A stretch of DNA of 42,795 nt from Pectinatus cerevisiiphilus (GTDB taxonomy: Bacteria; Bacillota; Negativicutes; Selenomonadales; Selenomonadaceae), in NCBI RefSeq assembly GCF_004341685.1, contig NZ_SMAA01000019.1:1-42795 (forward strand), read 5' to 3'. Shown piece after piece: positions 90-22,730 of the stretch; positions within the stretch are counted from its first letter, which is position 1, and each line of letters opens with the position of its first letter. Below the pieces are notes generated by a model. That model saw nothing but the letters and a program-made list of their open reading frames with translations. It searched no databases and was not told the origin of the DNA. Both the position numbers and the translations under genes were made by a program.

Positions 90-383
90 AAAAAAGCCTT
101 TCGTCTCTTTGTAAGAGACGAAAGGCTTTGCTTTCGCGGTACCACTCAAATTTACACCGCTTAAAATAGCGGTATACACTTTTACAGATACGCATCATAT
201 AAAATACGATGTTATATCTTTCCGTTTTAACGGCCGGATCCCGTCTGCACCTACTTTACATCATTTCAGGCAGCTGCTTCAAGGCGAGTTCATACCTAGT
301 TAAACTATTGCTTTTCACCACCCAGCAACTCTCTGACAGTTTTTGCAGGTACTACTATTCCTTTGCAACGCATTTTTCGTATG
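90..383 (-). promoter_or_regulatory. T-box tRNA-sensing leader, serving a gene left of the window
   Basis: Read on the minus strand, the RNA carries the standard T-box landmarks in order: AGAGAGTTGCTGGGTGGTG (Stem I distal region), AGTAGGTGCAGACGG (Stem I 3' side), the T-box core GAGTGGTACCGCG (135-147), and a long terminator stem (94-110 with 113-129) followed by a T run. It would read through when the cognate tRNA is uncharged. The likely specifier follows the GAA of the Stem I internal loop and reads AUG at 262-264, which would mean methionine, but the register is uncertain. The regulated gene is beyond position 1, probably an aminoacyl-tRNA synthetase or amino-acid gene. Confidence 0.9.
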
Positions 384-8506: not shown

Positions 8507-8655
8507 ATCTCTTATTTAGAGTGGTCGAGGGACTGGCCCGATGACACCCAGCAACCGGCGTTTACGCAAGGTGCTAATTCCTGCAGGAGTAATCCTGAAA
8601 AATGAGAGGATGAGTCGTTAAAGACCCTTCTTCTTAGAAGGGTCTTTTTTATTTT
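8507..8655 (+). promoter_or_regulatory. SAM-I (S-box) riboswitch with terminator
   Basis: All S-box landmarks are present: GAGTGGTCGAGGGACTGGCCC, GATGACACCCAGCAACC, AAGGTGCTAATTCCTGCAG and the closing AATGAGAGGATGAG, which pairs with CTCTTATT at the 5' end. The terminator stem AAGACCCTTCT/AGAAGGGTCTT (8621-8645) with a T run follows 10 nt later. High SAM should terminate transcription ahead of metI-patB. Confidence 0.97.
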
Positions 8656-21658: not shown

Positions 21659-21814
21659 TTACAAATACCTCCCTTTATTGTCCGTTGCCACAGTATTCTT
21701 CCCAATAATAGTGCTTGTTGTCATATTACCGTCAGCATCCAGCAATAATGTTAAAAGATTCTTTTGGTAAAATTGTAAATTGTTTTCTTTTGGGGTTTCT
21801 TCTATTCTATTCAT
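21659..21814 (-). CDS. Small ORF coupled to the TonB receptor, 51 residues, unknown
   Basis: This reading frame (MNRIEETPKENN to NTVATDNKGRYL) ends in TAA exactly one base before the receptor ATG (TAAGATG), and the receptor ribosome-binding site lies inside it. Its ATG overlaps the stop of an 18-codon ORF (ATGA). It has a central hydrophobic LLTLLLDADG and no signal peptide. No family is recognised. It might be a real small protein, a translational-coupling leader or the tail of a decayed gene. Confidence 0.45.
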   Translation of the reverse strand: MNRIEETPKENNLQFYQKNLLTLLLDADGNMTTSTIIGKNTVATDNKGRYL

Positions 21815-21867
21815 GCGGGTATATGCACACCTACCCTGCCCGTTGTATACTTGTAGTTCATAATCAT
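21811..21867 (-). CDS. 18-codon leader ORF upstream of the 51-codon ORF
   Basis: ATG at 21867 follows GAGAGG by about 9 bases; the product would read MIMNYKYTTGRVGVHIPA and its TGA overlaps the next ATG. A further 6-codon ORF (21942-21962, MSSCKT) with a perfect AGGAGG lies upstream. The chain suggests regulation of translation, or remnants of a broken gene. Confidence 0.35.
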   Translation of the reverse strand: MIMNYKYTTGRVGVHIPA

Positions 21868-21989
21868 ATAGATAACCTCTCTTTAATAAATTTATTAATA
21901 AATATAAGTTCGTTTATTTGGTACCATTGTGGATAGAAAAGCTATGTTTTGCAGGAACTCATCGACAATCCCCTCCTAAGTACATTTAT

Positions 21990-22037
21990 ATAAAAAATAA
22001 AAAAACCGCCGTATGGTTTTGCCGATACAGCGGTTTT
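21990..22037 (-). terminator. Terminator of the receptor-proximal cobalamin riboswitch
   Basis: Minus-strand arms AAAACCGCTGTAT (22025-22037) and ATACGGCGGTTTT (22002-22014) around GCAAAACC, followed by T and AT-rich sequence. It lies downstream of the second aptamer and 330 bp before the receptor start. Confidence 0.85.
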
Positions 22038-22099
22038 CTGTTCGACGGATAAATGCAGCTCATTTTCCCGATAAAAGGGATAACTTTAATAGACCTTTT

Positions 22100-22330
22100 C
22101 ATACACATTTTTGTGATGACTCGGTCTGGCTGTATTTATCCGCCCGTCTTTCGCAGGTTTATGTGGATGCTAAAAACAGTTGGTGCTCCGGCTCGGTATC
22201 AACGTTCACCTGCCCCTTTGCAAGAGGTTCCTTTTAGGATTGCTAGATGAACTACACCTCACGGTTGCGGGACAGCTCCGGACTTGCGCCGGCTTTCCCA
22301 TAAAAATTCTTTGTAGAATTACCTATTTCC
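22100..22330 (-). promoter_or_regulatory. Cobalamin riboswitch 2 (receptor-proximal)
   Basis: On the minus strand GGGAAAGCCGGCGCAAGTC, CGGAGCTGTCCCGCAACCGTGAGG and a B12-box-like GAGCCGGAGCACCAACTG (22177-22194) follow the consensus order of the cobalamin aptamer. GAAAGACGGGCGG beyond the B12 box may supply the kissing-loop partner. The boundaries are approximate because the outer closing stem is not obvious. Confidence 0.85.
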
Positions 22331-22361
22331 CATTAATTTCTTTATTAACTTGTCAGTAAAA

Positions 22362-22394
22362 CAAAAAAGCCTCCATCCACAATAGATGAAGGCT
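22362..22394 (-). terminator. Terminator of the distal cobalamin riboswitch
   Basis: Minus-strand arms AGCCTTCATC and GATGGAGGCT (22369-22394) and a T6 run (22362-22368). It separates the two aptamers, so transcription must pass it before the second sensor is made. Confidence 0.85.
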
Positions 22395-22500
22395 GTAACA
22401 GCACATTTCGTTTACAGCAGTAAAAAAATACTGCCAGTACGAAATCTCCTCCCCATCGCTCGTAGGTATATAAGCATCAATGATGCTAACGGTGATTGTC

Positions 22501-22652
22501 AAACAGGCAGTTCTTCTGGCTCGGATTCATCGCTTATCGCACCTTCTCAGGAAAATTCCCAATGGCATCTTACGGTTTGCTCATCCTCACAGCGGCGGGA
22601 CCGCTCCGGTTTTATACGGATTCCCTATTAAGTCCTTGCGGACGCCTGTTCC
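22501..22652 (-). promoter_or_regulatory. Cobalamin riboswitch 1 (distal, transcribed first)
   Basis: A clear aptamer on the minus strand: GGAACAGGC (22644-22652) pairs with the closing GCCTGTTT (22501-22508); between them lie TTAATAGGGAATCCG, AACCGGAGCGGTCCCGCCGCTGTGA and the B12 box GAGCCAGAAGAACTGCCTG. A terminator follows at 22362-22394. Confidence 0.95.
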
Positions 22653-22701
22653 ATATAGACATAATAATACAGGTAAGATTACATAAATTTTACCTCTACA
22701 C

Positions 22702-22730
22702 ATACTAACACTTTAAAAATCCACCGTCAA
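22702..22730 (-). promoter_or_regulatory. Promoter of the tandem-riboswitch/TonB receptor transcript
   Basis: Minus-strand -35 TTGACG (22725-22730), 17-bp spacer, -10 TAGTAT (22702-22707), start near 22695. No convincing second promoter lies between the two riboswitches, so both appear to be on one RNA of about 1 kb before the receptor gene. Confidence 0.6.

Follow-up and report, generated by a model that had tools for sequence, protein, structure and literature searches.

RESULTS

A leader with two cobalamin aptamers in series

The window analyzed here is a stretch of 42,795 nucleotides from Pectinatus cerevisiiphilus, whose genome (G000) is 2.63 Mb in 47 contigs with 12 cobalamin matches. 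The features of interest lie on the minus strand, where the order is a promoter-like site, a canonical cobalamin aptamer (the distal aptamer), a terminator-like hairpin (T1), a second cobalamin aptamer (the proximal aptamer), a second terminator-like hairpin (T2), and the open reading frame (ORF) of a TonB-dependent receptor (Table 1). The window also has matches to a T-box leader (111-377, minus strand) and a SAM riboswitch (8509-8608, plus strand).

A covariance search with Rfam RF00174 (gathering cutoff, 31.5 bits), which the preliminary description of this locus had proposed as a check, places both segments above the cutoff, and each covers model positions 1 to 189. The distal aptamer, described there as clear, scores 92.6 bits (E = 7.5e-22; 22664-22489), and the proximal aptamer scores 46.4 bits (E = 1.2e-8). 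The claim of a second cobalamin aptamer therefore stands, but its extent is 22342-22161 and not about 22100-22330. Its B12 box is diverged, as had been stated, and the two aptamers are 52% identical, in agreement with the view that they are not recent duplicates of each other. Both hairpins are followed by T runs, as expected for a terminator after each aptamer, with folding energies of -16.6 kcal/mol for T1 (41-nt stretch) and -21.1 kcal/mol for T2 (51-nt stretch). A terminator scan detected T1 and missed T2, whose stem is bulged close to the loop.

A single promoter upstream of both aptamers had been suggested, and a match to the consensus is indeed found at 22730-22702. Because promoter-like matches in the scanned region number 3, compared with 5.3 in shuffled sequences, the site itself is weak evidence. 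The gap between the aptamers is 146 nt. A promoter within it would make the aptamers separate transcripts, but the promoter scan found no promoter-like match between them on the minus strand. No ORF of 25 or more amino acids lies wholly inside the gap; a 49-codon frame with a TTG start overlaps the 3' end of the distal aptamer and T1, with no Shine-Dalgarno sequence seen. We infer that both aptamers are in one transcript, so that two complete riboswitches share one leader without an ORF between them. Each would have its own expression platform: that of the distal aptamer is supported, and T2 is present behind the proximal aptamer, with no link between the two found. The existence of two riboswitches in series, beyond chance, is confirmed.

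The downstream gene encodes a TonB receptor, as the preliminary description had it, with Pfam Plug and TonB_dep_Rec_b-barrel domains. Its best NCBIfam match is the B12 receptor family TIGR01779, at 111.9 bits. Because this is far below the cutoff of 599.7, the designation "B12 receptor" would be drawn from the riboswitches.

Table 1. Features of the tandem leader and the receptor gene
Feature	Position	Strand	Remarks
Promoter-like site	22702-22730	-	TTGACG-17-TAGTAT, TG before -10; consensus match only
Distal aptamer	22489-22664	-	Canonical cobalamin riboswitch; RF00174
Distal P13 region	22443-22497	-	AATCACC (22497-22491) pairs GGAGATT (22449-22443); outer stem proposed
Distal P13 inner hairpin	22466-22452	-	CCTACGAGCGATGGG; strict-pattern motif
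Antiterminator strand	22448-22457	-	GATGGGGAGG; partner CCTTCATC at 22392-22385
Terminator T1	22362-22394	-	Hairpin 22394-22368 and T run
Proximal aptamer	22161-22342	-	Variant subtype; RF00174; B12 box CGGAGCACC, accessory hairpin CCTCTTGCAAAGGGG
Proximal P13 candidate	22138-22168	-	ATCC (22168-22165) pairs GGAT (22141-22138); outer stem by analogy
Proximal inner P13 hairpin	22157-22143	-	CCTGCGAAAGACGGG; motif pattern
Proximal L13	22146-22143	-	CGGG; assigned by analogy
Long hairpin H2	22044-22143	-	Between proximal aptamer and T2; folding prediction
Terminator T2	21992-22037	-	Hairpin 22037-22002 and T run
Six-codon ORF	21942-21962	-	MSSCKT; strong Shine-Dalgarno sequence; by eye
18-codon ORF	21811-21867	-	MIMNYKYTTGRVGVHIPA; next start overlapped as ATGA; by eye
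51-codon ORF	21659-21814	-	MNRIEETPKENN...; like fusion-gene start MNRIKNTAKNNH...
TonB-dependent receptor, 699 aa	19558-21657	-	Pfam Plug and TonB_dep_Rec_b-barrel

The distal switch has the anatomy of a repressing riboswitch

The inner P13 motif, in its strict pattern, stands behind 49 of the 60 aptamers examined. The strand GATGGGGAGG of the distal P13 region is predicted to act as an antiterminator by pairing with the 5' arm of T1. When RNA up to this arm is folded without P13, the predicted pairing is 0.77 in the window and 0.75 in a paralogous leader on contig C2 of the same genome (see below), and it falls to 0.00 in both when the outer P13 stem is imposed. Imposing only the inner hairpin lowers the overall upstream pairing of the T1 arm from 0.79 to 0.29 in one leader and from 0.74 to 0.15 in the other. 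In these folding models, antiterminator pairing and P13 are mutually exclusive. The loss of pairing under an imposed P13 arises partly by construction, given a folding program that does not admit pseudoknots and two helices that overlap or cross. The outer P13 stem costs approximately 7 kcal/mol, a payment that would fall to the ligand and the kissing loop. Across six homologues, 95% of antiterminator cells are paired, with no double-sided changes, and the pairing of T1 is kept, with double-sided changes in 4 of 12 pairs; for all tested helices jointly, 24 of 500 shuffles had an equally high number of double-sided pairs. As modeled, this P13/antiterminator arrangement is that of a known repressing corrinoid riboswitch and fits an OFF switch. 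For L5 we adopted the consensus UCCCG (PMC10653944). A candidate covariation between L5 and L13, distal versus proximal, was rejected, since the CCGG...CCGG loop is not L5 and the pattern failed in other aptamers.

The proximal aptamer and its platform

The platform after the proximal aptamer is long, reaching down to about 22040, and it has no GAGGNGATT-like stretch, which comes after P13 in most other aptamers. The inner P13 stem of the proximal type is preserved through a double-sided change in G003, a genome of the same genus as the window. Within the proximal aptamer (three sequences), covariation is not above that of shuffles, 169 of 500 of which are as high.

The preliminary description had taken both switches to be OFF switches. 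The distal switch fits this, with an antiterminator at 0.77 that excludes P13, but for the proximal switch no antiterminator against T2 stood out when the window and the C2 paralogue were folded, and imposing P13 left the state of the T2 5' arm unchanged in both (0.70 to 0.71). One candidate was the helix ATACAGC:GCTGTAT, which is conserved in both paralogues and is top scoring in the window and second in C2; because its pairing is 0.00 to 0.02 in every ensemble, we do not claim that it switches T2. For related aptamers at other loci, RNAalifold analysis of nine platforms indicates that the strand CTGCCTG of the B12 box is able to pair with CAGGC, an invariant sequence located ahead of the terminator. 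An ON-switch reading of these platforms built on that pairing was rejected, as its next step is not conserved. The platform after these aptamers is strongly conserved across families (A6, nine loci), including the invariant CAGGC that can pair with the aptamer's own 3' strand.

By score, the proximal aptamer belongs to neither of two other Rfam cobalamin families. With AdoCbl-II (RF01689) it scores 18.9 bits (C19:22240-22316; cutoff, 36.5), and with AdoCbl (RF01482) it also scores 18.9 bits (C19:22171-22324; cutoff, 50). In six genomes, neither family has a match over its cutoff.

Paralogous leaders and an autotransporter-TonB fusion gene

The same genome contains a second tandem pair, on contig C2, in the identical order and with a gap of 144 nt compared with 146 nt in the window. 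The two leaders can be aligned over about 1 kb. Identity is 0.46 upstream of the aptamers, 0.87 in the distal aptamer, 0.91 in platform 1, 0.81 in the 23-nt spacer before the proximal aptamer, 0.885 in the proximal aptamer, and 0.89 in platform 2. It is 0.845 from T2 to the first small ORF, 0.60 in the next 63 columns, 0.79 in the region of the second small ORF, and 0.57 in the last 100 columns. Based on these values, the proximal unit is conserved like the distal unit and exceeds most of the downstream leader in identity, and the 23-nt spacer offers little contrast for this argument. The C2 paralogue has both terminators (-17.0 and -16.0 kcal/mol).

The proximal unit is not retained everywhere. 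A third copy of the leader (L061, C2:76 kb) has kept the distal switch, while the proximal aptamer and T2 are deleted, leaving a trace of a P2 arm. In the G004 leader (L057, G004:C1:861 kb), all of the proximal unit except its 3' part is gone; by eye, the proximal core there is swapped for an inverted repeat and some of the 3' platform is retained. In G003, a lone hybrid aptamer (L058) resembles the distal type in its 5' part and the proximal type in its 3' part. Among the genome contigs searched with the proximal-aptamer motif, the only match is in Pectinatus frisingensis MB174 (Negativicutes).

The C2 leader leads into a gene of ~1,750 codons in which an autotransporter barrel is joined to a TonB receptor (Pfam domains of the intact fusion paralogue: Autotransporter, 642-887; Plug, 1058-1160; TonB_dep_Rec, 1281-1713). 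In the window, both small leader ORFs have counterparts, by eye, in the two paralogous leaders, and the 51-codon ORF, which stops one base ahead of the ATG of the plain receptor, resembles the start of the fusion gene. We read it as a probable remnant of that start, and the leader together with the start of its old gene may have been copied in front of another receptor.

Two intact fusion paralogues of ~1,750 amino acids are present in this genome, at G000:C2:61755-66998 (L042:2-4999, minus strand) and at 70620-75878 (L101:4618-9879, minus strand). Frames of at least 1,400 codons that span autotransporter and TonB parts occur in 17 of 120 genomes of the class. The 31 genomes surveyed below contain six fusions (two in G000 and one each in G004, G022, G027, and G029), all a few kilobases downstream of cobalamin riboswitches, with a tandem pair in five of the six cases.

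Placement of the proximal aptamer in a variant clade

In a sample of 60 aptamers, which is not random but consists of those at the loci studied here plus aptamers cut by hand from genome regions, six lack both CCACTG and GAAGG, and all six are variants: the proximal aptamers of the window and of C2, the lone G003 copy, and one each in G003, G004, and G027. When 380 genomes of the class are searched with a model of the window type (R1), at least three loci score >170 bits, each of them from Pectinatus, and the next best among the matches listed is G222, at 75 bits. The model of the other type finds at least 14 loci at E values up to 1e-12 in at least 13 genomes; the locus counts from these model searches are lower bounds. 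The RNAalifold structure underlying model R2 differs from the cobalamin fold.

In a tree, 17 variants form one clade without any canonical member (support, 0.999), and outside Pectinatus the variant nearest to the window type is that of G278 (support, 0.80). The accessory motifs of canonical aptamers are absent from most of the clade. Most variants share a CCTCTTRC-type hairpin and a changed B12 box; L125v is an example without the hairpin. The accessory hairpin and B12 box of the window's proximal aptamer are the same in G003 and close in G278. Because neither type's model clearly separates the other type from canonical aptamers, it is the tree, together with these shared letters, that supports a single clade. 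Trees of 150- to 200-nt RNAs can cluster sequences by common deletion, but this clade also shares the letters of its accessory hairpin and B12 box.

Mixed pairs recur in related bacteria

The 31 genomes contain at least 168 cobalamin matches, at least 167 of them over the cutoff. At least 10 same-strand pairs with a gap of <600 nt occur in 6 of these genomes, compared with a chance expectation of 0.16; all these counts are lower bounds. The statement in the preliminary description that tandem arrangements are uncommon for B12 agrees with the literature, in which tandem cobalamin riboswitches make up <1% of such untranslated regions (PMC2258182) and 26 cobalamin doublets are reported in a review (PMC9481103), but near relatives of P. 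cerevisiiphilus are rich in them.

Not every pair is mixed: those of G022, G029, G027:C18, and G027:C28 are two canonical aptamers, and the last has a variant 600 nt upstream. Conversely, 14 of the 17 variants, from several Negativicutes families, lie within 1 kb of a same-strand canonical aptamer, a neighbor count restricted for L124 and L128 by flanks of ~1.5 kb. The three lone variants are in G003:C8, G301, and G157, the latter two viewed within about 1.5 kb only. The order seen in the window, canonical then variant, occurs at five other loci (L120, L123, L125, L126, and L129) with gaps of 140 to 324 nt, where the gap of L125 is approximate since its variant, below the RF00174 gathering level, was cut by hand. 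A terminator-like hairpin is present in the gap of all five, and the gap of L129 additionally contains a 41-codon frame. Further arrangements are variant then canonical and canonical-variant-canonical. The latter is found on one strand at L120, L123, L126, and L129. At L121, a 178-codon ORF lies between the variant and the canonical aptamer. Back-to-back divergent cobalamin riboswitches occur at G003:C40:58851/59196 and G004:C1:1001256/1001681.

Among the genomes searched with the fusion protein, a same-strand fusion lies downstream of nine variants (G000 C2, G004, G027, two in G280, G286, G290, G295, and G306); except at G000 C2, the distance is large enough for other genes to lie in between; in this tally, G052, G193, and G301 could not be assigned. 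A TonB receptor without an autotransporter part follows the variants of the window and of G278. No match to the fusion protein was found near the variants of G003:C8 and G157, and G003:C43 runs off its contig. Because the divergent subtype in related bacteria also tends to adjoin an ordinary one, the canonical/variant pair has the look of a design used repeatedly in Negativicutes, in most cases before genes for surface uptake. Neither the repeated occurrence of the variant clade in series with canonical aptamers nor the whole-leader paralogue in the same genome had been noticed in the preliminary description.

DISCUSSION

Taken together, these observations make it probable that the leader is a serial transcription-attenuation device built from two unlike corrinoid riboswitches in front of a plain TonB receptor. 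In the mechanism that we propose, the distal aptamer would bind its ligand, which from the family would be of the adenosylcobalamin type, and the bound state would stabilize P13 and block the GATGGGGAGG:CCTTCATC antiterminator, so that T1 halts transcription. Transcripts that pass T1 would meet a second decision, made by the variant aptamer, its P13-like element, the long hairpin, and T2. The leader itself would be a copy of one that precedes an autotransporter-TonB fusion gene and would here control a plain receptor. Against this serial reading stand the negative result at T2, where folding revealed neither an antiterminator nor an effect of P13, and the loss or reduction of the proximal unit in L061, L057, and L058.

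Tandem cobalamin doublets are already published, and a 2025 survey lists cobalamin among the tandem classes with experiments (PMC12452182); what sets the window apart is a second switch of another subtype. In the open-licence papers searched, the passages covered describe neither mixed-subtype pairs nor this variant, and mixed-subtype pairs do not appear in the descriptions of doublets in PMC9481103 and PMC2258182. The window resembles the pseudo-cooperative doublets of those two papers in having two complete cobalamin riboswitches, a terminator after each, and no gene between them. It differs from them in combining two subtypes, in the recurrence of this combination across families, and in a second switch that may be either ON or OFF. 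In the repressing riboswitch of Priestia megaterium metE (PMC10653944), the 3' strand of P13 also serves as an antiterminator by pairing with the terminator's 5' arm, as predicted for our distal switch, but the partner of the metE riboswitch in that leader is a SAM riboswitch (PMC9600662) and not a second corrinoid switch. The SAM-I/AdoCbl tandem, a NOR gate, likewise has serial switches with independent control of one gene, although it combines two ligand classes rather than two subtypes of one class (PMC9481103).

The simplest account of the pair is that both aptamers read the same ligand and both are OFF switches, which would give a steeper response. This is the published interpretation of same-class doublets with separate platforms (PMC9481103; PMC2258182), and the Negativicutes cobalamin riboswitches assayed so far are mostly promiscuous among corrinoids (PMC9600662). 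Since look-alike pairs exist (e.g., L092 and L094), tandem leaders in these bacteria need not combine two subtypes. However, the second aptamer of the window is of another subtype and not a duplicate, and its platform lacks the usual stretch after P13. We consider that this account has a substantial chance of being correct, somewhat short of even.

Alternatively, the canonical and variant aptamers could read different corrinoid forms, with the same or the opposite sign; for the variant, the ligand might be one with another upper ligand, cobinamide, or another cobamide. The altered B12-box segment of the variant clade, the absence of CCACTG and GAAGG from its first-seen members, and its recurrence beside canonical aptamers across families all point in this direction. 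There is also precedent for activation, since the corrinoid riboswitch of Alkalihalobacillus halodurans cobT activates transcription (PMC10653944); there, however, P13 itself excludes the terminator, and in the window no overlap between P13 and T2 was found. The P6 accessory region is highly variable among these riboswitches (PMC9600662), so that a change there need not alter the ligand. A reading with two signals is a genuine, if minority, prospect.

Decay of the proximal aptamer to a relic, with T2 acting as a constitutive partial terminator, would suit the low Rfam score (46.4), the loss or reduction of the unit at three related loci, and the lack of any detected coupling to T2, but this reading is improbable given that the aptamer is 88.5% identical between paralogues (like the distal aptamer at 87%, versus about 0.6 in two leader stretches), that its accessory hairpin and B12 box are common to G003 and nearly the same in G278, and that its inner P13 stem is preserved in G003 by a double-sided change.

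Returning to the serial leader of two unlike riboswitches, same-class tandems are usually read as devices that steepen a response, and in the loci described here a second switch of a different subtype is found again and again before surface-uptake genes, autotransporter-TonB fusions among them. A bolder proposal, which we regard as rather unlikely in its full form, is that in Negativicutes the second subtype and the canonical aptamer make up a two-input gate for corrinoid uptake at the cell surface, in which the variant reads a different corrinoid and may be an ON switch. Two natural single-switch versions, the paralogue L061 and the lone variant L058, are ready-made controls for such comparisons. 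If the ligands or signs of the two switches differ, the leader would be a natural logic gate inside one riboswitch class and would give a handle on what the double-barrel autotransporter-TonB proteins import. If the bolder proposal is true, synthesis of the uptake protein would require both a shortage of the coenzyme and the presence of the right substrate.
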